Below are positions 2,449-41,827 of a DNA stretch of 64,000 nt, piece by piece. The stretch comes from Diadema setosum (Eukaryota > Echinodermata > Echinoidea > Diadematoida > Diadematidae), in NCBI RefSeq assembly GCF_964275005.1, contig NC_092690.1, positions 6,115,336 through 6,179,335 on the forward strand, in the 5' to 3' direction. The first letter of the stretch is position 1. The number at the start of each line of letters is the position of its first letter. A program made the position numbers and the translations under genes. The notes under the pieces are model-generated. The model did no database searches. It saw only the letters and a list, made by a program, of their open reading frames with translations, and had not been told where the DNA came from.

Positions 2449-2452
2449 TATA

Positions 2453-5011: not shown

Positions 5012-5032
5012 AGAATTGGTGGAGAACCCGGG
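5012..5032 (+). other. Primer-binding site
   Basis: Directly after the LTR the sequence reads AGAATTGGTGGAGAACCCGG. The TGGTGGAGAACCC part has the usual position and TGG start of a tRNA-primed minus-strand site. I cannot assign the primer tRNA without comparison. Confidence 0.6.
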
Positions 5033-5221
5033 CAGCAATTGTTAAAAGTTAATAACTAGACCAGTCAACTTATGTGCAACTGACAACTCGAAACAAGAAG
5101 CCAAAGGTTAGACCGCCAGTGGCCACTTGTCTGACCAGTGAGAGTTAGGCTCAAGGTCCAGTGTCTTAAGGTCAGATTACATTGAGTGATTGTTGCTATA
5201 GTAACGTGACTGTACATTGCA

Positions 5222-8200: not shown

Positions 8201-9583
8201 GCGGAACTTACTGAGTCACAAGCAGCGCAGGTAGCCGATCTGCTAAATCAGTTCGATGCACAATTAACCGATGTACCAGGGCGAACAAACGCGATGGAAT
8301 GCTCAGTGACACTCACTACCGCTGACCCCGTGGTAAGCAAGCCGTATCCCCTACCACAATCTATGCAAGCTGCGGTAAAAGCAGAATTGAGCGAAATGCT
8401 AAATATGGGCGTGATAGAGAAATCACGATCCAAGTACGCGTCACCGATCGTACTAGTGAAAAGGAAGGACGGAAGTAACAGGTTTTGCGTCGACTACCGC
8501 AAATTGAATGCTATAACTGTGTTCGATCCAGAACCTATTCCGATTGCTGACACTCTCCTGGCGAAGCTGTCAAGAGGTAAGTACTTTTCGAAGTTCGACC
8601 TCAGCAAGGGGTATTGGCAGATACCCATGGCCGAGTCTGATAAGGAGAAAACAGCATTCGTCACCGCTGAAGGCCTGTTTCACTTCACCGTGCTGCCGTT
8701 TGGTATGGTGAATGCACCAGCTACCTTCTCACGGCTGATGCGAGAAGTGCTGTTTGGACTCGACAATGTAGTGAACTACATCGACGATATCCTTGTGTTC
8801 TCCGAGACTTGGGAAGAACACTTGGATTCCTTGCAAGCTGTACTCTCGAGGCTTGCAGATGCTGGGTTGACCGCGAAGCCAAGTAAATGTCATGTGGGCT
8901 TCAAGACTCTCGACTTTCTAGGGCATGTCGTAGGTGGCGGCACGCTGAAGCCTCACCCTGAGAAAGTAGAGCAGATCTTACAGGCGGAAGTGCCGCAAAC
9001 AAAGCGGGAGGTACGCGCGTTTCTAGGGCTAGCTGGGTATTACCGCAAGTTCATACCCAACTTTGCAGCTATCGCCGCACCACTGTCTGACTTGACTAAG
9101 AAAGACAGAGCCAACCGCGTAGACTGGGGACCCCTGGAAGAGCAGGCGTTCAACACGCTGAAGTCCCGACTGACTTCATCCCCCATACTCCATCTTCCAG
9201 ACCATGAATCCCCGTTCATACTGGCGACCGACGCGTCTGACGTAGGCATCGGCGCAGTACTGATGCAGCGCGTAGAGGGAGAGAAGTTCCCTATCGCATA
9301 CATCAGCCGGAAGTTGTCAGACACAGAGCGACGGTATGCCGTCATAGAGCGAGAGTGCCTCGCAATTGCATGGGCAGTAAAAAAGTTCGATGTTTACCTA
9401 TATGGGAGAGAGTTTGAACTTGAGGTGGATCATCGTCCCCTCATGTACATTGCCAAGGCTAAGTTGCAAAACAACCGAGTCTTGCGCTGGGCACTTGCCC
9501 TCCAATCCTACCGCTACCACGTGACCGCTGTCAAGGGAACAGATAACGTTGGGGCAGACTTCCTTAGCCGATGTCCAGAGTAA
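5222..9583 (+). CDS. Gag-Pol polyprotein (Gmr1 type)
   Basis: A single 1453-residue frame. The N-terminus has a charged Glu/Lys/Arg-rich coiled-coil-like stretch (about residues 25-65), followed by the Gag region and a CCHC zinc knuckle, CYVCGKAGHLARNC, near residue 287. The aspartic protease signature DSGCSTAVV lies near 396. The integrase follows: an HHCC domain at about 604-645 and the DDE core (AIDLVGPF near 672, SDRGAQF near 733, GLVERFNG near 768). After it come the RT, with FDLSKGYWQIP near 1125 and YIDDIL near 1186, and RNase H, with TDASDVGIG near 1335 and DHRPL near 1402. Integrase before RT is the copia-like order, yet the RT is of gypsy type. The start is the first Met after the primer site. 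Base composition is clearly more GC-rich than the host DNA around it. It encodes the machinery for reverse transcription and integration of the element. Confidence 0.95.
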   Translation: MDVYSQLIKLGKEAGLTGKELVDFARDEKEKLDLKEEKLREEQQKEREERQKEREHLKEMKELELQIAAARPRNDSPSNGMKKVKLPLFNEKTDDLDSYLCRFERYAESMGWARTQWALPLSTLLTGKGLEVYSRMPSELANDYDELKAALLQRYELNEEGFRAKFRSSQVEPGETHSQLAERLKRYLLRWLELAGFRAEFDDLIQLMIMDQIYARSSKELKQFVRERHPANLNEMTKLADQYSQAHPHKEQKNHSYKDQKRPDKGQNQGHLASKFSGPQGNKGSSGCYVCGKAGHLARNCQAKTNSPRPNRAAALDEMKGSEEKTSQDRKGAACIEANTVRYETARQPGSYVKLASGDEIPLLEAGCSSGVRPSGVNMPVLQGKVGGHVVSVLRDSGCSTAVVKSVFVRTPQIVAGQKKRVVLIDGTVREFPIARVWVDTPFYTGEVEALVMEDPMYELILGNIPGVRDQNNPDPQWSLDSDEVVVKEEEMVESSEGGAVETRGQKAQIAKPLKPLPTASALSLATSKGEYEAAQKADPTLAKAWRAAESGQKTTTSKGNESKFLVHRGLLYREFQSTKLEYGKPVRQLAVPSAYRDGLMALAHDGIMSGHLKTQKTLDRLQQSFYWPGMGDDVRRYCISCDICQRTVNKGSVGRVPLASMPLIDTPFKRVAIDLVGPFDPKTDRGNRYVLTLVDYATRYPEAIALPSIETERVAEALVEMFSRLGLPDEILSDRGAQFTSELMRELGRLLSVKQLNTTPYHPMCNGLVERFNGTLKAMLRRMSAERPKDWDRYLPALLFAYREVPQASLSFSPFELLYGRTVRGPLSLIKTIWEAETVDEEVKTTYEYVVDLRARLEETCKVAHEELKRASKRYAKYYDAKARDRKFEVGDKVLIMRPTSASKLLMQWQGPYTVTGTLGRCDVRVEVNGKVKTYHVNLLKKYVDRARSRDNEVQANAISVVEEEVESDLDRPCIGLPALAQNESVADVVIDAELTESQAAQVADLLNQFDAQLTDVPGRTNAMECSVTLTTADPVVSKPYPLPQSMQAAVKAELSEMLNMGVIEKSRSKYASPIVLVKRKDGSNRFCVDYRKLNAITVFDPEPIPIADTLLAKLSRGKYFSKFDLSKGYWQIPMAESDKEKTAFVTAEGLFHFTVLPFGMVNAPATFSRLMREVLFGLDNVVNYIDDILVFSETWEEHLDSLQAVLSRLADAGLTAKPSKCHVGFKTLDFLGHVVGGGTLKPHPEKVEQILQAEVPQTKREVRAFLGLAGYYRKFIPNFAAIAAPLSDLTKKDRANRVDWGPLEEQAFNTLKSRLTSSPILHLPDHESPFILATDASDVGIGAVLMQRVEGEKFPIAYISRKLSDTERRYAVIERECLAIAWAVKKFDVYLYGREFELEVDHRPLMYIAKAKLQNNRVLRWALALQSYRYHVTAVKGTDNVGADFLSRCPE

Positions 9584-9698
9584 GAGGGGCATGTTTACCC
9601 ATAGCGAGGGGATTATCGAATGTTGATATTGTCATGTGTATGTACGGACAAATTAGTTTCATACGTGAAAATACTATTGTAGATAGCAGTACTATCTT

Positions 9699-9709
9699 GA
9701 AATGGGGGG
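9699..9709 (+). other. Polypurine tract
   Basis: GAAATGGGGGG lies just upstream of the 3' LTR, three bases before its TG start. This is the expected position for plus-strand priming. Confidence 0.6.
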
Positions 9710-9712
9710 TCG

Positions 9713-11287
9713 TGTCATGATATGACATATTTTGTATTTGTCACGTAATAATTTGTCTCATTGTACTACTGTTTATTAGGTAGCTCATGTAAGAAATTGA
9801 TGTTATCGCAATGGTTACAAAAGAAGTGCAGCTTTAAAGACAAAAGCTTGCATCAAAATAACCATATAAGGAGATGTTGCGATGCACAATCAAAGTAAAA
9901 GAGAGTGATTTGGAATTAAATGTTTTGGGGATGAGTAAACCCTACATGACGTCAAAATACGAGGAAAGGGTATCCCTGGTAGTATGCCTCATACTAACTG
10001 GTATGTGGACGTCATTCACGACGTCAAACACAAGTTTCTAGCTAGGTCAAAACAGGACCACTTCAAAGAATTTTGGTTTCCGTGGACAGGAAATGATGAC
10101 GTCAGCAGAGGCTTGACCAATGCAAAATGAGATACTCAAGAAAGTTTTGACAGACAGAAAACGCCAACCAATAAGAAAAGGGGGCAGGACTTCTATGAAA
10201 ACTTTCTAGGAAGTCACTTGACTTCATTTAATTAATTTTACAAGGAGACCTATGGTCCAACAAATGTATAAATATGCAGTGTTTGGGCATAAAATTCAGA
10301 TGCCACATTATTTGCGGAACACTCAGGACCAGGCTACGTTACTTCGAGATTGCGAAGTTAGAGAGTAGCAGAGTGTTATTTGGAATCAGTGTGATTCAGG
10401 GATTGTTGCATTTCGGCTTGGACAGCCTGACCGTCCAGCAGAGAATCTAGGAGGATTCGAGTGTAAACACCAACAACTGTTGTAAGTACACGATCATTTA
10501 ATTGAAGTTGTTTATGCCTTGTAAGTTCCTATGTAATTCCCGATATTGCATTGTATGTGTGATGTTTGTATGTCAAACCGAATTTTAATTGCATTATGAA
10601 AGGAATAGAGAATTAGAGCAACGCTTGGATTTTAATGGGCTGATTAATCACCCCTATTCAACATTGAAAGATAATGATCCATGGTGAAACATTATTATGG
10701 AAATTATATGTGGCTAATCAATGTTAATATGATGGAATATACAATCATATGTTTTGTTGAAGTTATATGAATAGAATCAGGAATAACCAAAGACCACAAA
10801 TTATAAGGGAGGTATCATGTTATTAAATTAACAGGGTGTTTAGGGTTCCAGAGAGAGAGCCACCGTTTAGGGTTCCAGAGAGGACCAGAAGAAAGGGGAG
10901 ACGACACGCTACCTCAGGCAGGGCATCGTCGACAACCTAGAGCAACCAAGCACGGGAGCTTCTAGAATAAACCAACGAGCAGAGCAACCAAGCTCAAGAC
11001 AAGTGGAATTGGATATCTGTATTCAAGTTTGTAATATGTTATTATTGTAAACGACCACAATTCGAGACCAGATAATAAATCTTACTGATTGTTATATTGT
11101 AAGAACACTGTGTGATTGGCTACTTCTTTCGAGGCACTGTAGTTGCACAAGTCGAAAGAGTTGAATGAGTGAATGGTCTGCTAACAATCTGCTGCATTTA
11201 GAGAAAGTCAACCTTTGACTATAGAAAAGATCCCAGTCGCAGGGAGGACTTTCGTTCCCCACATTCAGAGGAAAGTCCCCTGTGACA
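9713..11287 (+). repeat. 3' LTR of the Gmr1-like element
   Basis: Same length (1575 bp) and, on reading, the same sequence as the 5' LTR. It ends CCCCTGTGACA and is followed by the CATGC target duplication and then the remaining family A sequence. Confidence 0.95.

Positions 11288-13270: not shown

Positions 13271-13316
<46 letters not shown>
12828..13316 (+). mobile_element. 5'-truncated LINE, left portion
   Basis: This holds the last part of a non-LTR retrotransposon ORF2 and the start of its 3' UTR, which runs into a (TA)n tract at 13273-13316. The element resumes at 27005-27100 after the nested LTR element. The C-terminal RT extension is of the CR1/L2-like kind common in marine invertebrates. 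The assignment to a clade is inferred from the HWLP-type block and the tail. Confidence 0.75.
12831..13202 (+). pseudogene. LINE ORF2 C-terminal fragment
   Basis: The frame starting AGG at 12831 reads RLVTLTKTSDHISSPVLQSL and continues with HWLPIHQRITFKILLIVYK. Later come RGPRTCTRYGYRAFS, PLFWNELP and SYLFTQR, ending at a TAA at 13200. The LHWLPI...RI.FKILL..YK block is a hallmark of the region after the RT domain in CR1/L2-like LINEs. About 123 codons remain. Everything upstream (endonuclease and most of RT) is missing, as is usual for 5'-truncated LINE insertions. The open frame at 12835-13239 on the same strand is in a different register and is only a shadow. Confidence 0.75.
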
Positions 13317-13319
<3 letters not shown>

Positions 13320-14113
13320 AGCGTAGCCGGAGAGCGGTCCAAGAGCCTTAATTCTTGTGTCTACAGGTATAATGTGTACTATGTGTAGCAGCACATCAGC
13401 ACCTATTTCATATAGCTCTCATATGCAGCCTATCTCATACACCACGTCTATATACGTGCATTCGGACTCACTAGGCGCATTAGAAACCCAGGCATATCAT
13501 TCTCCCAATCAACCATACAGCAACCCATTTACAGGGTCTAGTATTACAGACTACCAGTTGCAAGAAGGAGGCTGGTGTGGAAACGACAGTCCGAAATACG
13601 GTTCAGTGCAGCATTGCTATATTATGTTTCCTGCTGTTACAACCGATGGTTTTCTCTGCTAAGCTCTGTGTGTTTCCCCATTAATTCTATAGTTTATTAC
13701 CAAAAAGGAGAGAGTGCTGTGGACCCGCACTTACCCCCCAACCCAACTGAAAAGTTGTGCAGTGAGCTCGCGGTATTTATACCCTCTCGAGCCATTGTCA
13801 CGTGACCAATCCTGTCTTATTAACCCATCATGTATCAAAATGTATTGGAGTACTATACAACCCTACTTCTATGCCTTAATAATTTCTGTGCCCTTTTCCC
13901 TAGGGCTTCTGGCCTTTTTCCCTACTTTGGACATCGTTAACCTTGGTTTCTGTACAGGGTGTTTCACAAAACTATAGGGTGTTCCAAAACCTTCTATACA
14001 ATTTCTCCATTGGAAATGCACGGGGGGCAAAGTCTATGGAATTTTTACACATGTTCAGAAATTAAGGGCATGAGCCGCATATTTTAAAGGTGCTCTATCG
14101 CATTTTCGCCACA
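13317..14113 (-). repeat. 3' LTR (797 bp) of the minus-strand gypsy element
   Basis: On the plus strand it begins TGTAGCGTAGCCGGAGAGCG and ends CATTTTCGCCACA, so TG...CA borders hold on either strand. The same sequence occurs at 18895-18953 and 26267-27004. Open frames inside it (13357-13977) recur in the second copy and are not genes. Confidence 0.9.
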
Positions 14114-15071
14114 CTACCCCCTCCTTAAAATGAAACCTACTCCTGGAGGTTGGTGTGGAATGTCTTGTCAGTACTCTCTTCATTATCAACTGTATCAAAA
14201 ATCAAACATATCAAGTCATATTATTCCCACTATCATCTTGTACTTCCCCTATGAGCTTTTGGGTGTCAACAGAGCTTGCAGATTACAAACTTGGAAATGT
14301 ATTTACAAAGTGTACATATATACATCCTGAATCATGGAGTTTGAATTTTGGTGGGACATTTCTCCCCATTCCCAGGCCGAAATGTTAGGACATAGTTGGG
14401 TTTTCCTGTAATTTGCTTCATCTACCAATTTCTCATTTGTATAAACCGGGAACAAAATCAAACTTTTCCAAACAATATAATTTGGGACCTCCATGATTCG
14501 GGCCTACAGGTTGAAAACAATCCACTTCAACAGTTAGACTTATGTCTATACTTTCTTCGTCTTCTTCTCTTCTTCATCTTCTTCGAGAACTTCAATTTCT
14601 TCTATGTCTCATTACATGCAGTATTTAACATCTTAGATTTTCTTCATTAATTCTTCTTCTCAAACGGGCACGGTAGTCACCGGGGTTTGTGTGGTCGATC
14701 ATCCTCAGCTGCAAAACCAGTGTGTGTGTCGTTGATCATCCTCTGCTGCATTTCCCAGGTTTGTGTCGTTGGTTCTTAGCAGCTAGCCAGGACGTGGGGC
14801 TAGCTTCGTTTTATAAAACAATCCAAAATGTTATTTTTTTTCTCTATTCTATTCATTCTTATTTAAACCAAAATTAGCCAAAATAAATCAAATTACAATT
14901 TCGGTTGGATGAGTGTGGACCAGTGTCTGCATGCTAAACCGCACACAGTGAAAGGTACTACCACTCCTCATCCGAATTTGGACAATGCTAACTACGTATT
15001 AACGACGGAGGACGACCAATGTCACAGTCTCGTCCATCAGACCCGTTGCATGTGATCCCAGTATGTCTCCA
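14114..15071 (-). other. Element interior without recognisable coding
   Basis: Between the last recognisable pol sequence and the 3' LTR nothing coding can be identified. A GTNGATCATCCTCNGCTGCA phrase occurs twice near 14694-14752, and a TTCTTC-rich stretch lies near 14555-14660. Confidence 0.5.
14115..14126 (-). other. Polypurine tract (minus strand)
   Basis: Read on the minus strand, AAGGAGGGGGTA precedes the 3' LTR. This is the expected position of a plus-strand primer for an element in this orientation. Confidence 0.6.
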
Positions 15072-18890: not shown

Positions 18891-18894
18891 TTTT

Positions 18895-18953
18895 TGTAAC
18901 GTAGCCGGGGAGCGGTCCAAGAGCCTTAATTCTTGTGTCTACAGGTATAATGT
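18895..18953 (-). repeat. 5' LTR of the minus-strand gypsy element, outer piece
   Basis: These 59 bases match the first 59 bases of the LTR at 13317, with two differences that I can see. The match stops at ATGT, where a DNA transposon begins, and resumes at 26267. Together the pieces (59 + 738) give 797 bp, exactly the length of the other LTR. Confidence 0.9.
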
Positions 18954-18985
18954 CGTCGGTGTTACCACGAACCGACGCTATTTCG
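18954..18985 (+). repeat. Left terminal inverted repeat of the 7.3-kb transposon
   Basis: 32 bp starting CGTCGGTGTTACCACG and ending GACGCTATTTCG. It pairs with 26231-26262 with four mismatches and contains one copy of the subterminal motif (18967-18977). Confidence 0.85.
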
Positions 18986-19347
18986 TTTTTGAGCGAAAAT
19001 GCAATTCTGAGAAAATCGCGTTTAAAGATCTCACAAGTTCTAGACAACGTTTTCAATGACTTTTCCTGTCTTGTGTGTGAAAATTTTGACAGGGTGATGA
19101 GAGTGGAAGTTGTTCTTCCTATCCATAGTGTAATTTTAGTGTGAATTCAAAAGAATTACGATATTTCTGTCTTCAAACTCACTGCGTCGGTTCGTAAATC
19201 CATCGTTTCTTGCGCGCACCATAGGTTATGTACTTAAGCGCGGGTCTCACGAACCGACGTAAGTTGTATTACTCCGGTTCGTGAGACCCGCGCTGTAGGG
19301 CCTGCACAATAGGTAACGTGCAATACGCGTGTATTTACGAACCGTCG
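18967..19347. repeat. Left subterminal motif cluster
   Basis: Copies of ACGAACCGACG or its complement lie at 18967-18977, 19185-19195 (reverse), 19249-19259, 19275-19282 (reverse, shorter) and 19337-19347. The last repeats the longer context ACGAACCGtCGCTATTTC of the terminus. Such arrays often serve as transposase-binding sites; that role is inferred here. Confidence 0.75.
19238..19293. repeat. Perfect 19-bp-arm hairpin, left subterminal
   Basis: GCGCGGGTCTCACGAACCG at 19238-19256 is followed after 18 bases by its exact reverse complement at 19275-19293. The arms contain the subterminal motif. An analogous hairpin lies near the other end (25981-26035). Confidence 0.9.
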
Positions 19348-21571
19348 CTATTTCATTTTCGTATGTGTTTACATACAAATACTATTAGGGCTATACCTGC
19401 TTATCAACAATAACCTTATTAATTGAAATTAATTGTCATGTAATGATTATTGTGATGATTATAATACATTAGGTGATAATTAAGATGATAATATACGCCA
19501 GTTTCTCTTAATTGTTCTAAAAAGCGTGTTGTCCTTGTTTTCATCTTCATTTAGCATTGTTATTAGAGCTGTCGTTGATCGCTCCAAAGATTTCTTTGCC
19601 CTCCCCCCTCCTTTTTTGTGTGGATATATTATTCAACACTTTTGCACGTGGACATTTATCATTTGGTAATTAATATGTACTCGGTATACTGTGTTTCATA
19701 TTTTTTTACTTTTTACTGTTTTATTTTTTTACTTTTTTAACTTACTTTCTTTATTTTTCACATAATTTTTAATTCAAATTCAGTTCACTTCTTTCATAAT
19801 AATTATGAATGTTTGTTCTAAGATGAAGGATACCGCTAAATATAGGGAAAAAGATGTGCCAGTCAGTAATGATTACTTGCATTTACTCATCTTTCATACT
19901 CATGCACTCTGTTATTTCTTTCTCTGAAATAATCTATCAATTTCTTTATTTCTTATTATTCCACATTATTTGTGACTTTTACTTTGTCACAATTTTTATC
20001 GGTGTCATTATTGTCATTTGGCTTGCATGCGAATTCACTCATAATTCCTCATTTTCCATCTTTCTCTTTCCTGCTCAACAGATTCTTTGATAGCTGCACT
20101 TGATCATATAAAAACATAAAACTCATCCTGCATGCACTCTTCGAAACTGATAAACTCCTAAAAATACATAAATATCAAAATTATCAGAATTTCAAGCTTC
20201 ATCTTAAATATATAACAATGGTCATGTTTTATTATGCCTTTTGCAGCAATATATTGAAGAGGTACATTATGTAATCGAAGAAACATAGGTTCTCAATAAA
20301 GTATCAAATTTGAATTATTCAGAGATGAGTAATGACAATGGGAAGGATAACAATTGTGGAAGAGCTCCATAAATCAATAAATATCTAATGGCAAATGGAG
20401 ATGGAATCAATATTAAAGAATATGCGTAATTCAAGTTCATTATTACATCAGTTCTTGTGTGTTCACAAAAAGAGAAACACAGTTCGAACATGCGCACCAA
20501 ATCTTACAATTTACATTTACATCTATAGAGTGCGGACGGAACATATACAAAAGAAAGAATAACATTCTCAAATTAATATATCAAGCATAATTATGTATAT
20601 GAACATAAAAAGATGTTGCTGCATATGCATGAAGCTTGTGAGTGCTGCAACACACATTATGCTCAGATGGAAACTTGATGTATATCATACAAAAGAGAAG
20701 AGGTACTGCATGTACATGTAGTTACACTATTCACAGTGCAGTAGAGAAAAAGCAAGAGAGAGAGAAGGAAATGGGTGTCTAAAATAGGTCGATGTAAGGA
20801 GTGCCAAGCCAATTAAGTCTCTAATAGTTATACATATATGAAAAGGAAACAAATTAATCGCAACATAAATGATCGTGCTCATATTAACCAATAATTAGCA
20901 TCTAAAAATGTGTGTAGAAAGCCCATAATATCAGCCTTTCGCCCCGTAGGCTTGTTACATATGAGAAAAGAGAAATTTTGGCCGACCCCCCCCCCTCCGA
21001 ATCCTTAATCCACCAGTACTATAAACACATGTGCTAGCAAATTCACAAGAGGGGTGGGGAAATTCGGCCAAAATTGTGTGTGGTTAAGATAATTAAAAAG
21101 AAAGGTCATCGGCAAAACTACGGGGTGGATGCAGACGAATTTTCATGTGATGACTAAAAAAAAAAAATGCAGCCAAAGGGGGGGGGGGGAAGGACGGTGG
21201 AGAGGGGCCAAGGCTAATTTGACTCCCCTCCCCCCCCCCCCCAAAAAAAAAAAAAAAAAAACACGCCACTGTTTTACAGCACCTTTAAAGGACTCTTAAT
21301 TTTCTTTTGTAAAAAACAAACGTCTCGAAGGAAAAAATTCCATATTGTAGGCGAAATGTAGACCGATACAGTGTATGAAGTGTACATCCCAAGCTATTAA
21401 AGAACAAAAAAACAGATTATGAATATTATTTAAAGTAAGAATTTCAGTGCGTTTAATCATCTTTAGTCGAGTTGCAAATGACATGTGCATATTTAATAAG
21501 AGCAGTTAACTTCGAAGCGCCCCCAAGCCCTTCTATATTTAATCATTCATGTCTAAAGGTAGTGCTAGGGC

Positions 21572-21643
21572 ATCCCGGTGGTCTAGTGGTTATGGCGCTG
21601 GTCTAGTAATCCGGAGGTCGTGGGTTCGAATCCCGCTTGGGCT
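21572..21643 (+). tRNA. tRNA-Thr(AGU)-like sequence, probably pseudo or SINE head
   Basis: A 72-nt cloverleaf-like sequence with B-box GGTTCGAATCC, an anticodon loop CTAGTAA (anticodon AGT) and a T-arm GTGGG/CCCGC. The acceptor stem has one mismatch and two G-T pairs, and the anticodon stem ends in a T-T mismatch. A long T run follows, starting at about 21652. It lies inside a transposon, so a tRNA-derived SINE head or pseudogene is more likely than a working gene. Confidence 0.5.
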
Positions 21644-22907
21644 GCCTGTGATTTTTTTTTTTTTTTTCACAGCAGCCCACAAACTGCACACTGCAGTTGC
21701 ATGTGTTACTACGGATGGAGACAAATGAATAATCTATTTCAATATACAATGTTTGACATCCTTTTTGTAATCACTTTCTTTAATTGTACATTTAGAGACA
21801 TAATGAATTATTATTAAAAGAAATCATATTTCTGTATTTTGTTGTGAGTTTGCATGGGAGCATACACGTATCATAATTTACAATTTTAGTTAAATAAAGA
21901 ACATCTCATAACAGAACTGTCTAGTGATGGTTGAATGATTATGTCAATTTGTTATAAGTCCTATCAGTTATATGGAGTGCATTTCCCATGTTTATAAGAA
22001 TCATACGTAACACATTCAAAGTGGGTTGAAGACAACAAAATAATAAATAAAAGAATAAAGGAGAATAGAATGAATTACAGTTTGATGTGAGTTTGGCATG
22101 TCATTAACTGGATTAATATTATCATCTAGCAGAGATGCATATTTGATTATTTGTTGCATTAACTTCATAAAAATACATACATGTATAACATGTCTCAATC
22201 AACATTCAGAATGTTTGCAAAATGTAGATGAACATGTATCATGAACATGGTTGAAGATGAAGCTGGAACTTTTTGTTAATGGGTCTAAGCTACCATTTGT
22301 GACTCTCATAAATCTGTTTTCTGTGAAAATTCGTACAGCGAGCGAAAAGTTTCTGATATACACATTTTGACAGTGTGACACATTTGGTTATGCCCCCGAC
22401 AATTTAGATTGACTCTCGCAATTATCACCGTTTACGAAAAATTAATCAGTGAAGGGCATGTTAATCCTCAGTCGATAACTATTACAACTATGCAATGATT
22501 ATTCAACCATCTAACTTCATCTGATTACAGCATCATCTGAATATTGCCAATGTGCACTTAGAAATTTATCAAGATGTATCACAAGGTTATGATTACCACA
22601 CAAAACCTTCAAGATTTATTATCATGAAATACATACCAATGAACACTTAAAGAAAATCTAACATTCCATATCCACATGAAGCTTGCCTTGATATAAATGT
22701 CTCTCAGTAGTGTTATTAAAGTGTAGCAAAATTGTAATTACGACATCACAGAATGGAATGCATGTTTTCACCTTCAATCTTAGAATCTTCTTTCATGTTT
22801 CCACTTTACAATCAAATTTTTAATGTAGATACACCGTCCTTATGTTGTCGCCCTTCATCCCAAGTTCTCCCTTCTATCCTATCTGTAGATTGTCTTCTTT
22901 CCTAAGC

Positions 22908-23990
22908 CATTGTATTCACATTCCTTGATGATAAGCACGATGCTGTACTTTTTTTCTTCTCTGAAACAGTCCAGCTCTTCGCTACTGCATGGCATCAGTC
23001 ATGTGAAAGAAAAGACAGAAATTAAGAACTTTCGATTAAAATCAAACATCATGATACAAGATACAACTTTCATTTTGAGAAAAAGAAATCAGCCAACTAA
23101 GCTGTAGTTGAAATCATTTTGCTCTATTTATATTAAACATAAAACAAAATGGTATACAGGATCAAAGAATGTCAAAAAATACTGCTGTTCGTCTTTGATG
23201 CATATTCAAATTGTCTCGCCTTTTACATATTTTAATGATGCAAGATCTTATGTCTAGCACTTAGTAAGTCTCATGTAGAAATTAAATTATCATTTACATG
23301 AATAAATCTACATGCCCTTGTAAATAAGGCATTGCTTTGAAAAAGCTGAATTTTACTAACTGCATTTGGGAAACAGTCTACGACAATCAAACTTCTTTAT
23401 TATCAGAGACTTTAACATCTTGATTAGACCTAGACTCTAATTACCATTGTATTCACATCCGTTGATGATGTACACGACCCTGTATTTTTTCTTTTCTTTT
23501 CTGAGACAGTCCAGTTCTTCGCTACTACATGGCACCAGTCATCTGAAAGAAAAGAAAGAAATTAAGAACTTTTGATTAAAATCAAACATCATGGTACAAG
23601 ATACAACTTTAATTTTGAGAAGAAAAAAAAATCAGCCAACAAAACTGAAGTTGAAATTATTTTGCTCTATTTATATTAAACATAAAACAGAATGGTAGGC
23701 CTATGCAGGATCAAAGAATGTCAAAATATACTGCTGTTCGTCTTTGATCCATATTCAAATTGTCTCGTCATTTACACATTTTAATGATGCAAGATCTTAT
23801 GTCTAGCACTTAGTAAGTCTCATGTAGAAATTGAATTATCATTCACATGAATATAAATCTACATGTACTTGTAAACAAGGCATTGCATTGAAGTAGCTGA
23901 ATATTACTAACTGCATTTGGGAAACAGTCTACGACAATCAAACCTGTTTCTTATCAGAGACTGTATCATCTTAATTAGACCTAGACTCTA
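22908..23990. repeat. Two-unit tandem duplication (536-bp offset)
   Basis: The segment starting CCATTGTATTCACAT at 22908 is repeated from 23444 with scattered substitutions and small indels (CAGTCCAGCTCTTCGCTACT against CAGTCCAGTTCTTCGCTACT, for example). Both units end in GACCTAGACTCTA. It is non-coding. Confidence 0.85.
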
Positions 23991-25977
23991 CATTATCATT
24001 CAGCTTTTAAAGGTATTAACCATTCACCTATAAAACAGTGGCATTGTCATGTGCATCATATTTCTTTGATACTGCACATATTTTCATGAAGTCTGTGCAA
24101 GAATGCAAATGAAACACGTCTGCTGTTTGGTATTTATCAAAAAAAAAAAAAAAATCACTAACCCGAAAGTCCTTGGCCTTAGGAATAACACGTGGCGAGT
24201 TAGCAGGAATAGACATTAAAATAGAATAAGAATAGATCTACTAAATAGGCCTTTGCCTCATGAATATCTGGTCTAATTATAGACTAAGTGAAGTCTAGAC
24301 CTTTCACTTTTAAGTTACACAGATTTCATATTACTTAGATCTAGACTACATCTAAATCTAGACATCTAATACTATTAGATCTTGGCAACTTGTGTCTTTG
24401 TGACACGAAATTAACACGTCACGGATGATATTTCGGCGATGTCCAACAGGATGACAGTACCACTATTACTAAATCAGTAAGTTGACATAGATAACTAACA
24501 TCAACTTGTTAAAGTACGTTAGAGATGGCACCATATACAATAACCGGTGACACTGACACTGACAGATCTAGCGACTACGTTTAGACTAACGTTAAAGAGT
24601 GAGACTCGCCATCTCAGTAAGTCGGCCAAAGACAAAGTCAATACAGGGCTAAGTCAGTGTTACTGTTATGTTAGGCCTAACAAACGTTAACGGTTACTCG
24701 GTAAGGTTAGGTTTACCAGGACTCAAGAGTCCTGGTTAAATCAGTCGAGGGACATTTCTTAGGAAGTCCTTCGATTCCAAGAATAAAAAGAGTGAAAGAA
24801 CAAAGGGAAAAAAGGAAAGAAGAAAGGACAAAAGATTATGTTTGGCTGCTGTGGAAATCGACAGCGCCACTGTATCACTATCAATCAAGCGTAAATATAT
24901 AAACGCCATTTGATTGGGCCACATTCACAAGTTTTAGGGGGAAAAAGCCCCACCGCTGTGCTTAGGTACTCCACTCGAACTAACGTTAGACATACACTAC
25001 ACACAGTACGGTACTAGGGCTGAATTCACAAGTATACTTTAACACTGCACTGTACAGGAAAGCCACCTAACCTGTAGAGTACTCGTAGTGTTTAGGTAGT
25101 ATCACTAGACCACATACTGTCATAGATGACATCTACACCAACGCTGCACACTGGCACTGGTCCGACGGTCCCTGACCAGGAAAAATCACTGTTGGACACT
25201 GACCAGTAACTTTTTCAGGAATGGACCAGTAAAGATTGGGGGAAAAAATGGGTGGACTATACCTACTATTACCACTAGTCTAGATGTAGAGCTAGAGCTA
25301 GACTACCGGTACGGCTCTGAACTGTGCTAATTTGACTTGGTCTTAGACTTCAGCTGATCTTAGTTTTAGTAACTGGTATTACAAGTCTTAACTTAGACTT
25401 AATAGTTAGACTTGAAAGTAAAAGTCTAACATGTCTAACTTTATTCTTTACTCTTCCTTTGAGTTTTACTGTTAGACTTTTTTATTTTTTTTTGTTTAGT
25501 ACGCCTACTTTGTCAATCTCATGATTTCATTTTCAACTCAAAAGTCAAGGCTTTTAGTGTCTTCGAGACTTTGAAATCTTGCAATCTGCATGTCTTGCAC
25601 ACAGACGTTACGACTACAGTACTCAGTAGTCTCAGAAGTAACGACATAAGTTGAAAAGAAACAATAAATAATATGATTTGGGATCTAATTTGAAATTGGA
25701 TGGCGTTTACAGACTAGGCTTCATAAGCATCACGCGATTGAATACATGGGACTACACACTACCGCAATTAATGGTTATGGTAGTCCAACTGAAACTGTTA
25801 TTTTGAGCATGATTTTAATAGGATTATAGCTTACCATTCACTTCACTCGTGGACAGTGGGCTGGCTTAGGCCGTCATTCATCTTTCAGAAGGTTTGGTTC
25901 TCACTCTGAGATCTGGATTAGGGCCAAAACCTAATTCTAGGCCAGTAAGTTGAACAAAGCTCAAAGTAATGCAACTG

Positions 25978-26249
25978 CGACGGTTCGTAAAACCCGCAAT
26001 GCTCTTCACCGTAGCAATTCGGGTTTTACGAACCGGCGTATCTTTCGTGCGTCGGTTCGTGAAACTCCTTTTTCTCAATTTCTCGATATTTCGAGTACCG
26101 TCGTTTTTTTCTTTCTTTGATAAAATTAAGAATAATTAATTTTGTGATCTAAAATTTTGGGATTTGGTAGAGTTTTGAAAGCACTTTCATTTGGCACCAA
26201 TATCTCGATTTTGAAAATTTTGACCAAAATCGAAATAGCGTCAGTTCGT
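25978..26249. repeat. Right subterminal motif cluster
   Basis: Motif copies lie at 25978-25988 (reverse), 26028-26038, 26050-26060 (reverse) and 26239-26249 (reverse, in the terminal repeat). They mirror the left cluster. Confidence 0.75.
25981..26035. repeat. 16-bp-arm hairpin, right subterminal
   Basis: CGGTTCGTAAAACCCG at 25981-25996 pairs exactly with CGGGTTTTACGAACCG at 26020-26035. It shares the CGGTTCGT core with the left hairpin, but the inner sequence differs. Confidence 0.9.
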
Positions 26250-26262
26250 GAAAACGCCGACG
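26231..26262 (-). repeat. Right terminal inverted repeat of the 7.3-kb transposon
   Basis: 32 bp ending AAAACGCCGACG, the reverse complement of the left terminus with four mismatches. It is followed directly by the ATGT duplication. Confidence 0.85.
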
Positions 26263-26266
26263 ATGT

Positions 26267-27004
26267 GTACTATGTGTAGCAGCACATCAGCACCTATTTC
26301 ATATAGCTCTCATATGCAGCCTATCTCATACACCACGTCTATATACGTGCATTCGGACTCACTAGGCGCATTAGAAACCCAGGCATATCATTCTCCCAAT
26401 CAACCATACAGCAACCCATTTGCAGGGTCTAGTATTACAGACTACCAGTTGCAAGAAGGAGGCTGGTGTGGAAACGACAGTCCGAAATACGGTTCAGTGC
26501 AGCATTGCTATATTATGTTTCCTGCTGTTACAACCGATGGTTTTCTCTGCTAAGCTCTGTGTGTTTCCCCATTAATTCTATAGTTTATTACCAAAAAGGA
26601 GAGAGTGCTGTGGACCCGCACTTACCCCCCAACCCAACTGAAAAGTTGTGCAGTGAGCTCGCGGTATTTATACCCTCTCGAGCCATTGTCACGTGACCAA
26701 TCCTGTCTTATTAACCCATCATGTATCAAAATGTATTGGAGTACTATACAACCCTACTTCTATGCCTTAATAATTTCTGTGCCCTTTTCCCTAGGGCTTC
26801 TGGCCTTTTTCCCTACTTTGGACATCGTTAACCTTGGTTTCTGTACAGGGTGTTTCACAAAACTATAGGGTGTTCCAAAACCTTCTATACAATTTCTCCA
26901 TTGGAAATGCACGGGGGGCAAAGTCTATGGAATTTTTACACATGTTCAGAAATTAAGGGCATGAGCCGCATATTTTAAAGGTGCTCTATCGCATTTTCGC
27001 CACA
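26267..27004 (-). repeat. 5' LTR of the minus-strand gypsy element, inner piece
   Basis: 738 bases matching 13376-14113 with about one visible difference (GCAGGGTC for ACAGGGTC). It ends CGCCACA and is followed by ATATAT of the interrupted LINE 3' UTR. Confidence 0.9.
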
Positions 27005-27100
27005 ATATATATATATATTCCCCCGGATTGATGCGCTTAGAAACATCAGTATTAAGCGCTATATAAATGTTATTCATTATCGTTATCATTATAAATAAAA
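27005..27100 (+). mobile_element. LINE 3' tail, right portion
   Basis: After the LTR the (TA)n resumes, followed by CCCCCGGATTGATGCGCTTA and a TTAAGCGCTATATAAATG segment. The GCGCTATATAAATG ending is typical of CR1/L2-type LINE tails. It continues the truncated LINE at 12828-13316. Confidence 0.7.
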
Positions 27101-30343: not shown

Positions 30344-33300
30344 TTTTTTTTTTTTTGCATAGCATGGTTGGGCCAACCTATGTACTTCCTAGATAGAGAT
30401 CAGTGGTGTGAACCCACTTATAGATGTATAGACTGGAGGTGGTACGAACGAAATGTAAATGCGGAAGTATAACGTAAATATATCCAACTGATACATTCAT
30501 AAATATCTTTCTGTTTGTGTACTGGTTTGGTTGTCAGTCAGGCCCAGGCGCAGAAAACTGCGCCTGTCGAAAAGCGCCGAATTCTGCTATCATGACTATT
30601 ATAATGACAATACCCATCATGCAACGCGATGCTCGTAGTGTAAAAGGCATGGAGAAAATTTTGGTGATGAAGACACCAAATCGATATTAATTTTGTAGGA
30701 AAATTTGAACCCTGACACTTTTCTGATTTCTCATCTGTAGTAAGCCAAATAGCTAATCTTGCACAATAATCCTTTTCTAGGGAGAAAAAACCATGACATC
30801 TGGCGTAATTCTGGTCGGAATACGTAATTAGGTTAATGTTTTTTGAATGACCAACGGTTTGCTTTCTTTTTTAGCCTCTCGCAACAGGCGTCGAAAAGTG
30901 TAAGACAGAAATGTTATCTTTAACAACTGGCAGGGACACTCTTTCCCTTTCTCTCCCCCAGCACAGCCACCTCCCATGTCTTAACACATCATCTCTTTCC
31001 CCCTCTCTCTTCGGTCTAGTACTCTCCCTGGCAGGTTGGGTTCTTATCGGTATTATGTAAACATAGGGCAGCAGTCTAAAACAAAGAACTTTTTGTGAAA
31101 GTGCCAGCCTCATCTCTGTAGGGCCTATACCTCCCTAACCATGGGCAAAGCACAGAGGCAGGGACTATGCAATGGGTATGAAAGGCTCTTACACTGCAGT
31201 TTTAGATGAGATTCCAGAGAGACAGAGTTATACCAGAGAGCCCATAATATACCAGAGTTATCAGAGTTATTTGCAGATGATTCTGTGATTGAGGCAAATC
31301 CAGCAAGGTAATCACAATTAATCCTACTTTTCATTCTTACTAGCCTATTTCTTGATGTATCAATGAGCTAAGTATGGTCAGTGGTGTGAGGAGAGCTATA
31401 TTCTGTGCATGGCGATGGCGTTTGTTTGTGAGAGCGTGTGGCTCTGTGATGTGCCTGATACATGCCGTATTTCGGTAGACATGGTGATACAATGTAGTAT
31501 ACATACTATCATGTTTGTTCTAAAGGACGTTTAACACTTGTCACCGACTGTCTTGCATACAGGAGTGCACTGCACATCAGTGGAACAGGCTGGGAGGGTT
31601 GGGGAGGCATAGAGGGGAGGGAGAGAGATGTAGAAAAGCAGTAACGAGCGCCTGGTATACAGACGGTATCAATGGAACCGACTGTTCGCAGAAACTACGA
31701 GAATCGATTGTAGCGGGCACACTTGCTTGTAGTCTAGCGGGCGACGTATTTTTAGCCTGAATCAGTCCTTGATTGGCAGTCAATAGAGGGCGCGACAATG
31801 TGGAAGTCAAGTTGACTAAAAATACGTATTTTTAGTCAACTTGACTTCCACATCGTCGCGCCCTCTATTGACTGCCAATCAAGGACTGATTCAGGCTAAA
31901 AATACGTCGCCCGCTAGACTAACTTGCTTGTCGCTCGGGCGGATAACCCCAAAGTAAACTGCGCCTGGTGGGAGGCGCAGTTTTCTGCGCCTGTGCCTGA
32001 CTGGTTGTGTTGTTTGTTATTGTTTAATTCAGACTGTACAATTGAAAATCGTTTGTACTATTGTATATCTGTCGTTTTTTATGTTTCATTTCATACACAA
32101 TACACCATTAGCAGTAGTAACTATAATGTATCAAAACACACATAATGTGACGACTTGATAAATGACTCAGTCCATCAGTACAATAAGAAAGCTGTACTCT
32201 TCATGACTCCTCATGCACAGATCAGTGTCTTGATGGGCAGCCACAGCCAGACAGTGAGAAATTCAACTGCACGTGAGTATTCAATTATCAAAGTAATTGA
32301 TTGCTTGTATTTCATTCATGAACTCTTTATTTGATATAGTGGAAACCCCCTGTGTGCCACGTTATTCTGAGACACGAAGGTATATAGTCATGCTTTGAGA
32401 AAGAATTCTGTTTTTCCAATCAATAAATTTCAAATTTCTGTTACGCTGGACATAATAGTAAGCAAAGTTGAAGAGGAATGCCAAGTTTTGCTTTGATATA
32501 AATTGTATGACAAATCTATTTCTATTCAATTTTTCAATGACCAGTTGCTACATTACTGTAAAGGCATGACTTTTGCACATGAAACCGTGAGAGGAACTTA
32601 GAATTTACATGCAGATTTAGTTGGGAACACCGTTTGAGAAAAGCTTTCATTGTACCGCGGGATTAGGCGATTTATCGATCGGATAAGTGCGTTTGAGGGG
32701 AATATGCAAAGTTGGCACGCCGTCGACTGAGTGAGACGTGTGATCATGGCACATACCTATTTCATTTCTGTATATTTTGGTTTCAATATTCTTTTTTATT
32801 GCCCGTCTGTAATCGAATGCCATTTTTTTTCTAGAGTTATGTAGTAATGAGAAGGAAATGTTATCGGATTCATTTCTCCTTTACAAGTAGTCAGTGCATG
32901 GCAGTTGATTTTTTTTAGGTAAGTCGGAAATATGGCAGAGCATATAATAATTCACAGAGAAATTGAAAGTTTATTCGAAGAAAATTATTGGTTTTGAAAA
33001 AGCTCAGGTATCTATTAACAAAGAGATACTAATAAAATGTGACCGTGCACCTCAAAACGAACATAAAGTCGCAAACACTGATTTTGCGTGAGGACTGAAA
33101 ATAAGTGAAATGGGTCAACCTAGCCGAACTTGACTTTTTCATATTTTCTGAAAGAGCAGGTCTTCTTTTTACATTATGGTAAAATTTGGTATCATAAAAC
33201 GGGCAGGAAAGTGTGTTTTTTAGCAGTTTATCTCGAACATTTTTAATAGAACAGTGTGATTAGGTGTGTCTTTAGAATCCTTTTCTCATTTCTAAAAACC

Positions 33301-36235
33301 CTTGTCCACACTCTTCACTTTCAAGTCTAATAACTTTTGAAAGGATAGTGCTACTGCTTTGAAAGTTGACATTAATTATGGACAGAATGTGTTAATGAGG
33401 CATGCTTAATTTCATTTTAATCTAATAATCCCTTCATTGTTGTTACTCTGGTGGTTTACTTCCTGTTTTTTGTCCCATTCATCGCACAGCCAGCACGGTT
33501 TGGTAAAGATTAAGAGCTTGAATAGACACTGTACTTCAGAGCCTCTTTTCTCAGTTCACACTTTTCCTGAGTTTGTGCTTTCTTTCCAATATTTAGTTAG
33601 GAGAGTCCATTTGATTTGAGTTATACATCATTTTAAAGTTTAAAGTCTGGTCTTTCAAAATATGGCCTTCACTGAAAATTCATGACTGGCGACTTTTTGT
33701 TTGTTTTGAGGTGCAGGGTCACAAATGTGGGACCACTTAATCTCACTTTTCGGGGGATATCTCCAAAATTTCACCACTGATTTCTTTCAAATAAATTTTG
33801 AATTCCTTGTATGCTGTTTCAGAATTTATTTAAATGTTTCTAGTTACCTCGAAAAAATTTTGAAATCTAAATAATGATGATAATAATACTCAAATAATAG
33901 TAATAATAATGATTGATGATAATAGCTATAATAATCATACTTATAGAATTTCTACGGGACTATCGATCAAGTTCCCATATTCTTAGGCGCAGAAGAACAT
34001 ATAAAGGTAATAACATCCACTCAGCAATTCAACATTTTTTTTTTTTGTGGATATAGTACCAAATCAAGATGCGAACATCTTTGACTTCAGATGCTTTTTA
34101 AACTGATCAAATCTTCAGTTGAAGAGCATTCTAAAGAGATGGGGGTACAGAAATAAAAGCTTTTTGTTTTTCTCCGAGAATTGAGATTGTTCTTGCCACT
34201 GTTGATCTTACTATTATTTATTCAAGCGCTTTATCTTTACCAAGCCGTGCAAGCTGTTCGAAGAATGGAACAAAAAAAAATAATAACAACAGAACGGAAA
34301 CCAACGAAACATCATTAGTTTTATCTTACATACAATCCTTGCTGTTTTGGCGTATAATACTTACCGTAGTGGTCGATTGTCGTATCAAAGAGTATCGATT
34401 TCAAAATGTATTGACATGCCACACATCAACTGGGTCGTTTGCTGATATTTGCGGGTATTGTCATCATGCTTTAATATGACACACACATGAGACACAAGCG
34501 CACTGCTTTGACTAATAACTCCTTTTTGCTGTTGTTGTTGTTTTGATACAGCGGCAGCTTGAACGCCAGCGTCTCCACAATTGTCCGAGGTGCATTTCTT
34601 GAACACAACCGTTTGAAATCTATGTAAGTTCAAATTGTTCAGCTGTACATAACTTAATGTGCGCGGTGTTCTCACCTTTGCCGCTTTGGTTTGCTACGTG
34701 ACTTCACTTTCATGCTTGATTTTATTTCACCTTTTTAATCCAGACGAAGCCGATCATGAGATATACATCATCTGTTGCCCGTTTGCCTTTAGACCTATAC
34801 CGTTTATAAAATGTTTCTGTATTCTGGTATGATCTTGTCATTTCTATTTTTTTATGTATTTTTTTTATTATTAGATATATAATAAAATTTCCAGTCCACG
34901 ATTTTTTTCCTCTCACGTCTTTGACTTAATTGAGTATCTGAATATAAGAACGACCCAAGTCCATGGAAGACCATTTCGAGTAAACTTAAAAAAGAAAAAA
35001 AAAACAAACTTCATGTTTTTGTTATTTGTCCAACAATATTCTATTTAACAGTGATGGGAAGGCAACATTGTATATACAAATTACAACATAATAACAATCA
35101 AAATTTACATTAATTGTGGAGAGGCCATTTTGTGTGATGGACTTGGGTCGTTCTTTGAATCATATGGACCGTGAGTCGTTCTTTGAATCATGTACATGAT
35201 AGTCTGCTATAGGAGATGAGAGAGGGCGCTATAATGAATGTAAGAATGACCCAAGTTCTTCAGTCTTACATTCATGTCAGATTTAAATCATTCATTTCAG
35301 GCACTATCGGGGTAATTAGGATTTAGCATCTATCCACAGGATGAGTCCATGCATAAGCTACAATTTCCCATGTCAAACTGAATTTGGCCAAAGATTGGAC
35401 TTGGGTCGTTCTTATATTCAGGTCTTCAATTTATTTCCACATATTGCTACGCATTCCTCAGTGAAATAGTGTATAACGTACATAAGGAAACTAAAACAGT
35501 TGTCTATGGTAAAGATGACATAATCGGTAATGTTAGTTTCTTATTGTGAGCGAATTAAGTCAGTCAACTAAAATGCAGGATTTAGCGATTCACTTTCATT
35601 CTACACCTAATAAGAGTTGCTCAGCAGACATACAGAAACCATTTGTGAAATACAGAGTCTCTCCTAACATAATACTGCTGTAGCATTTCCACATATTTGT
35701 TTTTCAATTATCGTCAATAATGCACTTATTGTGACAACATTGTATTCATCTCAGAAACATGAATCTCAGATTTTTGTTCTCTTTTTTTTTTTTGTGGAGG
35801 GAGGGAATCGGATGGATATTGAGATATCCGAAGAAATTTGTGTCGGTGCGTGTGTGTTTGTATGTGCGTGTGCGTTTTTTTTTTTTTTTATTGTTTTCCT
35901 GTTTTCGTTTGATATAAATTGCTACAGCTTATTAATCGCATTATAATCTTCGGAAGCCAGCAGGTTTGGTGGTTATACGGTAAAAAAATATTGATGTTCT
36001 ATGTCTTATTTAGAAAGTGACCACTATTAAAATGAGATATCTAAGTATCTCTGCAATTCGTTGGCAATTTTCACAAAGCTGATGCTTTCTTTGGTCCTTA
36101 TATCACAAGCTATCTCAGGAAGAATAAAATTACACTTATCGAAGAAGGCGCATTTGAAGGATTGGGAAACAGTCTCTTAGCATTGTGAGTATATCGAAAT
36201 AGTGTCTTTGATATTTGTATTGTACATATTATTAT

Positions 36236-36308: not shown

Positions 36309-39300
36309 ATATTAGTATTATTATTGAAATAAATTTATTTGTTCAGCTTAAACAAAAACAACAGAGACAGACATTGTTGAACAATCATGACAGACACAGA
36401 GTAGAAACAGAACTTTGGAATACATGAAGCTGAAGGGAAGCAGGAAACCAGGAATCAGAATCTTTCCTTAAGATCTTGCCGACCCAGATAATCAATTAAA
36501 AGAAAATGCATTGGTGGTTAATTATTTCATATAAAAAAAAAAAAAGAGAGATGAACAAATGTGACCGTTGCAACTGATTGACAAATTGCCCTACATCGAC
36601 GTAAATAAGCACTGAATTGATCAGTGTTTTAGTAGTAGCCAAGATAAAAAATCATGGGCGTACATACTCGAGCAGGATTCGAACCTACGACCTCCTGATC
36701 ACCGGACAGGCGTGCACCTCAAAACGAACATAAAGTCGCACACACTGATTTTGCGTGAGGACTGAAAATAAGTGAAATGGGTCAACCTAGCCGAACTTGA
36801 CTTTTTCATGTTTTCTGAAAAAGCGGGTCTTCTTTTACATTATGCTAAAATTTGGTATCATAAATCGGGCAGGACAATGTGATTTTTAGCAGTTTATCTC
36901 GAACATTTTTGGTAGAATATTGTGATTAGGTGTGTCTTTAGAATCCCATTTTCATTTCTGAAAAACCATGTACACACTCTTCACTTTCAACTCTAGTAAC
37001 TTTTGAAAGGATAGTGCTACTCCTTTGAAAGTTGGCATTAATTACGGGCAGAATGTGTTAATGGGGCATGTTTAATTTTAGTTTAATCTGATAATCTCTT
37101 CATTGTTGTTACTGTGGTGATTTACTTCCTGTTTTTTGTCCCATTCATCGCACAGCCAGCACGGTTTGGTAAAGATTAAGCGCTTGAATATACATTGTAT
37201 TTCAGAGCCTCTTTTCTCAGTTCACACTTTTCCTGAGTTTGTGCTTTCTTTCCAATATTTAGATAGGTTAGGAGAGTCCATTTGATTTGAGTTATACATC
37301 ATTTTAAAGCTTAAAGTCTGCTCTTTTAGAATATGGTCTTAACTTCAAATTCATGTCTGGCGACTTTTTGTTTGTTTTGAGGTGCAGGGTCACAAAGGAA
37401 AAAAAAACAACGAAATGAACAAAATACATATTTTACTGAATTAAAAGTTTGCTTTCGAAAGGCATCATATATCTTTATATGTATGTGAAAGAGGAGATAT
37501 CAAGCCAATTGCAAATAATTATTTTGATTTGTTGAGAAGAGGAGAAATGCTCGAGAAGAGGAGAAATGCTCGTGGCAACAGTCGAAGCTTTCCTTTTTTA
37601 GCGGAAGAAGAAAATAGGAATTTACTAATGACGAAAATCGTTTTTGTATTTCTGTTTTGGACTTGTAACAACGAGACGTATTCATAATCACAACCATCCA
37701 TGGGTTTGATGGCTATATAACGGTTCTAGGTTTCGCGTATTATGTGACAGCTTGCTAATACTTCTACCTCTTCTACAATTCTAGCTTGTTTTCTTCGCTG
37801 ATGTTTTTAGTTTGATTGTTGCACGCAATTGATTACTTATAGATTGATTGACCTATTTTCAATTTTGTCTTCTTATGAAATAATCAAGTAATTCATTAAT
37901 TATTATTTAACCAAAAAGTATTCATGCATGTCTATTTTACACACTATACCACCATGTCATTGAATGCATAAAATGACAGGCCTTTTCCTTTACATCTTAT
38001 TGCTCTTAAGGGATTTGTCAACGAATGACATCCAGATGATAAGACGAAATACTTTCAGAGGCCTCCATAAACTCTTGTGGTTGTGAGTATTATATTGCCG
38101 CAGATACTTTGCCATTACTTAAGTCATTTGACGCTATACCGTATGCCACCCCCTCCCCCCGAAAATTCAACGGGACCATCCGTAATGATATCTAAAAAAA
38201 AAAAAAAGTCCTAATACAAATTCAGGGTACGAAACTATAACTCGTTGCCCACATCTTACAGAAAACTCCATTCGATTTGCTTCAATGGTCAAAGAGAAAT
38301 AAGGGATTTTGTTATAGAATGCCAAGAATTTCTTCCCTCCAAGTCCTGTCTATTGTAGTCACACACAGAAGCATCGAAGTGCTACACTTGGAAGAATCAG
38401 ACTCATGACATGCTACATTTCTCTGTCACCGCTGAACAAAATGGAATGGAGTTTTCTGCAAAGTAGAGCTAAGGCATTATATTTCAAGAGCCTGCAGTAG
38501 CATTTTGACAATTTATTCATTGTATGTGGTGTATATCAATGGATTGTATTTTTTTTTTTTGGGGGGGGGGAGTTGTGTAGGGAGAAGTGTTGTTTTAATT
38601 TTTTTTAGATATATCAGCCAGTTCAAAACCAAATCTCATCAAACAAACTTTGCATTCAGCTTAGAATTGTATGCTCGTTCATATTTCACAAGCGGTCTAA
38701 AACTATCAAGCAAAAAGCCAAAAGCTGAATCCCCTCTTAACCATAATTATATAGCATCCCTTTAATGTAAGCACGTTTCACCATTTAACCTTTACGATTG
38801 AAGAAGCACATCTTGATTATTAACTCCTTTGAACGATTTGTGTATATAATCATAAATTCAATTTTAACCGTTCTTAAGCCTTGAGAAAAAAATAAAAAGA
38901 CGGAATTTCATATTATTTTCATGATCTATGCACAAACGTTTTAATAATCATTGTTATTAACGTTGTTGCTGACAGAGGGACACAGGGATGAAGAACTTTT
39001 ATGAATTATTTGATGCACGCGATTGGCCTTGAGTAATTTATCTTATTGTTTAGGTTTTGCGATATTCTTCAAACGGGCTGCACTTGTATTCATCCGACGA
39101 TAGTACGCAATGAGCAATGTTCCAAGGTCAAAAGTTAATTCTATACATATAGTGAATGGTCGCGAGTTCGATGGTACAAGAAGTCACGCCAGGTGAAAGG
39201 TAGAGGCAAAGCCGAGTTGAATAGTGCGCCTCATCTTTCACCGAACGAGTAAAGACCATGCACTATTTTTTTTTTTTTTTGCAATACGTCTGACGTAATA

Positions 39301-41510: not shown

Positions 41511-41560
<50 letters not shown>

Positions 41561-41827
41561 GAGACAATGTAGATAACAGAAGATGTCGCATGAAACCGGC
41601 AGAGTTGTGAAGCTTTCGACCGTGGTCTTCCTCAGCTTTAATGTCTGCTAAGCAGACATCCAGGCAACGCAAACGTCTGCTTAGCAGACATTAAAGCTGA
41701 GGAAGACCACGGTCGAAAGCTTCACAACTCTGCCGGTTTCATGCGACATCTTCTGTTATCTACATTGTCTCAACTATAATTTCACTTAAGATGACAGAGG
41801 CGTGCGGTAGGAATATCAGCATCATCA

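Follow-up and report, generated by a model that had tools for sequence, protein, structure and literature searches.

Insertion site and borders

A window of 64,000 nucleotides of the Diadema setosum genome (NC_092690.1; C6:6115336-6179335) was analyzed, and an insert of 7309 bp at positions 18954-26262 (no strand assigned) was recognized in it as one copy of a family of non-autonomous DNA transposons. The insert sits inside one long terminal repeat (LTR) of a gypsy-type retrotransposon and divides this LTR (minus strand) into a left piece at 18894-18953 and a right piece at 26263-27007, as determined by alignment to the intact sister LTR at 13316-14116 (minus strand), which represents the empty site. 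Positions 13316-13375 of the sister LTR were aligned to 18894-18953 and positions 13372-14116 to 26263-27007, and the two alignments overlap by exactly ATGT (13372-13375). The same four bases flank the insert as target-site duplications, at 18950-18953 on the left (13372-13375 in the empty site) and at 26263-26266 on the right (read from the window sequence), neither being assigned a strand. When the flanks of the split LTR were joined at a single ATGT, a gapless alignment of 801 bp to the sister LTR was obtained, in which 4 positions are mismatched. The insertion cannot predate the gypsy-type element, because it splits the LTR of that element, and the gypsy-type element itself is young.

An earlier note on this DNA, written from the window sequence alone, had described a 7.3-kb DNA transposon with 32-bp inverted ends, lying in an LTR that becomes whole once the insert is removed, and the insert, its ends, the empty site and the genome family described below bear this out. 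The note had further regarded the borders as proven unusually well. Their position was correct; however, the window sequence fits two readings, namely an ATGT duplication with CGTCGG ends, or a TG duplication with an element beginning TCGTCGG and ending CCGACGA. Because the 2-bp reading yields an identical empty site and fits the window equally well, the border is unproven by the window alone, and the matter was settled by other copies: the perfect 4-bp duplications GAAT, GTAT and AATA are incompatible with a TG duplication, which is left with practically no probability.

Terminal and subterminal sequences

The 32-bp terminal inverted repeats (TIRs), CGTCGG... at 18954-18985 (plus strand) and its inverted match at 26231-26262 (minus strand), are identical at 28 of 32 positions; when the element was shuffled 200 times with its dinucleotides preserved, this value was never reached anywhere between the terminal 500-bp stretches. 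The left TIR was predicted to fold as a hairpin with a 7-bp stem (CGTCGGT/ACCGACG).

By pattern scan, the 11-mer CGTCGGTTCGT was found at ≤1 mismatch at eight sites in the 64 kb, four in each element end and none elsewhere, compared with a mean of 0.285 and a maximum of 2 in 200 mononucleotide shuffles of the window. At the left end, the motif is located at 18967-18977 (minus strand), 19185-19195 (plus strand), 19249 (minus strand) and 19337-19347 (minus strand, 1 mismatch), together with a weaker site at 19272 (plus strand, 2 mismatches); the distances from the end are 13, 231, 295, 318 (weaker site) and 383 bp. At the right end, it is located at 25978 (plus strand) and 26028 (minus strand) with 1 mismatch each, at 26050-26060 (plus strand) and at 26239-26249 (plus strand, 1 mismatch), with distances of 13, 202, 224 and 274 bp. 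One strong palindrome per end lies among these arrays according to fold prediction: the left palindrome (19237-19294, no strand) has 26-bp arms that are 92% complementary and contains the motifs at 19249 and 19272, and the right palindrome (25978-26038, no strand) has 26-bp arms that are 88% complementary and contains those at 25978 and 26028. When ≤2 mismatches were allowed, 16 sites were obtained in the 64 kb, the additional sites inside the element being 19272 and one in a tRNA-like sequence. The arrays are putative transposase-binding sites.

Copies in the genome and their age

The host genome (912.7 Mb, 102 contigs) was searched with the two 32-mer ends at ≤2 mismatches, giving 159 matches for the left end and 175 for the right end, with none for either reversed control; these are complete pattern counts, and positions were taken from approximately 100 listed places for each end. 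With the left 401 bp and the right 295 bp as queries, 214 first-look candidates and 190 candidates were obtained, respectively, and the 40 scored for each query were all 99-100% identical, in the case of the left query over its full length. Among the matches listed, 77 left and 90 right ends are exact, and 60 of the 77 exact left ends pair with a correctly oriented right end 1-25 kb away, the span being 7200-7400 bp in 44 of these 60 listed pairs. The other 17 are unpaired among the matches listed, which may reflect the listing, and end pairs more than 13 kb apart may be spurious pairings. A second size class is formed by left ends starting CGTCGGCATT, which are included in the 159; of the eight among the matches listed, seven have a partner, at a distance of 6896-6940 bp in six cases and of 9534 bp in the seventh.

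Twenty stretches were fetched, of which one (L039) was misplaced and 19 were usable. Both ends were visible in 16 of the 19, a right end being called if the last 60 bp contained ≤8 mismatches; in the remaining three (8575, 8595 and 14415 bp), the right ends lie beyond the fetched sequence. Two of the 16 complete copies are 5920 and 6517 bp long owing to internal deletions, and the others measure 7274-7353 bp. Fully read copies diverge from the consensus by 0.29-0.75%, and the last 59 bp, which were not used for picking copies, by 0.10%. The family occupies more than 100 places in the genome, and much of its spread is recent.

Twenty further copies (10 unread, unpaired left ends and 10 of 18 unpaired right ends) were probed approximately 3 kb from an end with 251-bp stretches. 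The family interior was matched directly in 18 of them, and was found in the neighbouring 2.2 kb in the other two.

Target-site duplications and target preference

Perfect 4-bp duplications were present in all 17 copies with both ends seen (the window copy and the 16 fetched copies), as the earlier note had read from a single insertion. The note had also staked its claim on the existence of other copies with a uniform duplication length, and both were observed (159 and 175 ends; 17/17 at 4 bp). The duplications were ATGT and ATAT (three each), ATCT and AAAT (two each), and GAAT, AATT, GTAT, ACAT, ATTT, AATA and AGAT (one each). Their first base is A in 15 of 17 and their last base T in 16 of 17; both hold in 14 of 17, for which the chance is 4e-12 under the base frequencies of the window. 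A pyrimidine precedes the duplication in 14/17 and a purine follows it in 17/17. The target is therefore the palindrome YAWWTR, of which the inner four bases are duplicated; duplications of strict AWWT form number 7 of 17 (ATAT 3, AAAT 2, AATT 1, ATTT 1).

Interior and coding capacity

No transposase-sized frame had been noticed in the window copy, and this was confirmed. Six-frame translations of the element gave no Pfam match at E≤1, and against PDB sequences gave only three weak matches, all in one frame (E 0.028, 0.24 and 0.24). The longest stop-free frame of the 17-copy consensus is 85 amino acids (aa), below the mean of 102 for shuffled sequences (range 75-132), and no frame of the consensus is longer than expected by chance.

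The interior contains a tandem pair of approximately 545-bp units at 22907-24000 (22907-23448 and 23444-24000; no strand), which are 89% identical, carry no coding evidence and are also present in most fetched copies that reach this region. An exon-like frame was seen by eye in each unit. It was considered in connection with the possibility that transposon ends had taken up a piece of host DNA as the interior (Pack-TIR), including a duplicated host exon. Such elements, in which transposon ends flank non-transposase DNA as in the present family, exist in animals according to the available text of PMC8277862, and the observed/expected ratio of CpG inside the element (0.58) is closer to that of the surrounding genome (0.75 in 28000-64000) than to those of the element ends (1.7 and 2.2). 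However, the exon-like peptide had no match in PDB and none among those proteins of 220-700 aa that have three words in common with it, its two copies are only 81% identical (54 nt) compared with 91-95% in the adjoining sequence, and the consensus frames are of chance length. The idea that the tandem units include a host exon thus found no support and was dropped. In addition, multicopy Pack-TIRs were rare in the survey, as far as its available text goes (PMC8277862), whereas the present family has many near-identical copies, and capture of host DNA is considered rather unlikely.

A tRNA-like sequence, perhaps a head of the short interspersed nuclear element (SINE) type, was detected inside the element by ARAGORN (21572-21646, plus strand; Thr, agt). 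It shares a 32-36 bp stretch with tRNA-like sequences at 48435-48496 and ~36679, which are perhaps likewise SINE heads.

Sister families and longer relatives

The pattern CGTCGG-N6-CRCGAACNGACG with two excluding positions, built to leave out the 7.3-kb family, gave 204 genome matches at ≤1 mismatch compared with 2 in the reversed control. The approximately 100 among the matches listed belong to several sister families, with a few diverged members of the 7.3-kb family (L067 and L068) among them. An element of sister family A (C3:15555118-15559011, 3894 bp) is flanked by ATAT on both sides and contains no frame longer than 121 aa; its motifs (≤2 mismatches) lie at 13, 222, 272 and 335 bp from one end and at 13 and 194 bp from the other, a spacing that resembles that of the 7.3-kb family. 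Family B, with ends CGTCGCCGGTCACACGAACCGACG, accounts for most of the sister-pattern matches among those listed, and a convergent pair of its ends 679 bp apart (C2:40623849-40624527) is of a size like that of miniature inverted-repeat transposable elements.

Longer relatives carrying a transposase had been proposed as the object of a search with the 32-bp ends. A longer relative was found, and no transposase was linked to the ends. This relative (C3:15612497-15624898, 12,402 bp) has terminal repeats identical at 32 of 32 positions, and the sequence just inward of them resembles the left and right ends of the 7.3-kb family. Three 191-bp probes of its interior were compared with the family: a probe lying 3.1 kb from the right end matched at 94%, and the two at 3.0 and 6.1 kb from the left end gave no family match. 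The duplication length is unreadable at this locus because the flanks are (AT)n. The 12.4-kb element could represent the autonomous partner; alternatively, a nested insertion in a family copy could account for its length. The element would perhaps be among the autonomous members if the CGTCGG clan were the visible part of an undescribed superfamily, in which rare autonomous members encode an unfamiliar transposase and mobilize the 7.3-kb non-coding parasite. The clan would then comprise several families that use YAWWTR targets and have ends of quasi-palindromic form (CGTCGG-N6-CACGAACCGACG), with motif palindromes mirrored in the subterminal regions; such a superfamily is judged improbable.

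Other candidates were discarded. At C6:17987908, 14.4 kb separate the ends, and a 969-aa frame, open at the edge of the stretch, lies in the additional sequence; since the frame looks by eye like a LINE-type reverse transcriptase (long interspersed nuclear element), this sequence is probably a nested insertion. At C7:12084170 (locus E), a sister end is accompanied, 6-8 kb inward, by a broken gene that resembles a DDE transposase by eye. Its pieces gave no Pfam match above curated cut-offs, and no second end was found within 17.6 kb. An intact relative of the gene at C10:4755726 (47% identical, Pfam DUF7869) has neither CGTCGG nor CCGACG within 9.5 kb, and none of 42 genome matches to the gene lies inside the 12.4-kb relative; a link between the gene and the CGTCGG ends was not accepted. 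An intact 1412-aa frame with DUF7869 and a DDE-like stretch recognized by eye was seen at 1095-5330 of the fetched stretch L070 (with L065/L069), and it is the relative of this frame that gave the 42 genome matches. The frame represents a possible type of transposase, and transposon ends of its own were not found. Viral contigs gave no match to the end pattern of the element; with shorter patterns of the motif, one match each was obtained in 12 viral contigs and 4 bacterial records, and these were taken as chance.

Proposed mobilization

The insert very probably belongs to a recently amplified family of long, non-autonomous cut-and-paste DNA transposons that are presumably mobilized in trans by a DDE-type transposase. 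Such a transposase, encoded elsewhere, would bind the CGTCGGTTCGT sites within ~400 bp of the left end and ~300 bp of the right end, cut the element at its CGTCGG ends, and join it to staggered 4-bp AT-rich targets within YAWWTR.

Several points weigh against this interpretation. Non-autonomous elements at such copy number are usually shorter than 7.3 kb. The divergence of the fully read copies is biased low, above all at the left end, because copies were chosen for fetching by how closely they match the left 401 bp, and two older copies found by pattern (L067 and L068) are only 93-97% identical to the window copy. CGTCGGTTCGT also occurs at ≤2 mismatches at six sites outside the element, and at one in the tRNA-like sequence inside it. 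Finally, neither an autonomous partner nor a transposase tied to CGTCGG ends was found in the genome loci examined, and an autonomous partner, if present, is rare, because all 20 probed copies share the non-coding interior.

The family shows that dozens of near-identical full-length copies can arise from a 7.3-kb element in which no gene is detectable. With its young age, exact ends, uniform duplications, target preference and natural empty site, it lends itself well to the identification and testing of an unassigned transposase.

Other repeats in the window

Another LTR retrotransposon occupies 3437-11287, and its 1575-bp LTRs (3437-5011 and 9713-11287) are 100% identical, indicating a very recent insertion. 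It contains an intact 1457-aa frame, in which the integrase precedes the reverse transcriptase and a SCAN domain is present; the best named relative of this frame is from Lytechinus variegatus (70%), in keeping with a sea urchin host, and the domain order is Gmr1-like. A repeat of approximately 700 bp is present in at least five copies in the 64 kb, which are 91-95% identical (2446-3143, 33037-33726, 36711-37394, 44049-44750 and 60874-61579). Long foldback-like palindromes of 192-225 bp, 94-99% identical to their own reverse complement, are located at 31730-31921, 41554-41778 and 44818-45031.

Comparison with known superfamilies

The features of TIR cut-and-paste transposons were found together in the family: inverted repeats, a duplication of fixed length in independent copies, and an empty site. 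The family is of this known kind and apparently new, the literature having been compared by superfamily and not by the family's own sequence. No superfamily was assigned, because no transposase is linked to the CGTCGG ends. Subterminal motif arrays occur in EnSpm/CACTA-Mirage-Chapaev-Transib elements, as in the 7.3-kb family. These elements also resemble it in their 2-5 bp duplications, whereas their ends are 5'-CA..TG-3' in most cases, with exceptions allowed, in the accessible text of PMC12730594, and those of the family are CG..CG.

The other published descriptions were likewise accessible in part, and the following comparisons are limited to those parts. The rule of Repbase for comparing termini refers to equal duplication length and the 11 terminal bp with 1 mismatch (PMC4455052). 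Ginger1 and Ginger2 share TIRs and 4-bp duplications with the family, but Ginger ends are TGTNR and the targets are CCGG/CCGT or RTATAY (PMC2836005), compared with CGTCGG ends and YAWWTR targets here. Kolobok has a TTAA target and RR..YY ends, with duplications varying from 3 to 5 bp in the KolobokP branch (PMC9587614), and piggyBac has CC..GG ends (PMC10045372) and a TTAA target (PMC9587614); both are similar to the family in their 4-bp duplications, whereas none of the 17 family duplications is TTAA and the ends are CG..CG. Within these sources, the earlier impression of unfamiliar ends and no obvious superfamily was upheld, since the Chapaev-type and Ginger signatures are absent, Sola is compatible by duplication length and AT-rich targets, and the comparison with Academ covered the duplication length.

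Duplications of 3 or 4 bp in AcademX, and of none or 1-4 bp in PHIS (PMC10045372), would accommodate a relative of either, or another superfamily with 3-4 bp duplications; AcademX was compared by duplication length alone. The constancy of the family at 4 bp (17/17, none at 3) speaks against this assignment, which is doubtful.

Sola2 was compared by description and not by end sequence. Strict AWWT is lacking in 10 of the 17 family duplications, and no transposase was found in the family or linked to its ends. On the other side, Sola2 of two amoebae has 4-bp AT-rich duplications of the type AWWT, or ATAT, AAAT and ATTT (PMC3627910), and the family has A..T in 14/17 and strict AWWT in 7/17; moreover, Sola termini are very variable, with TIRs of 11-1124 bp and element sizes of mostly 2-9 kb (PMC10741241), a range that includes the 7.3-kb element. 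The leading, if tentative, guess at the superfamily is accordingly Sola2, with the insert as a non-autonomous member that a Sola2 transposase would mobilize.

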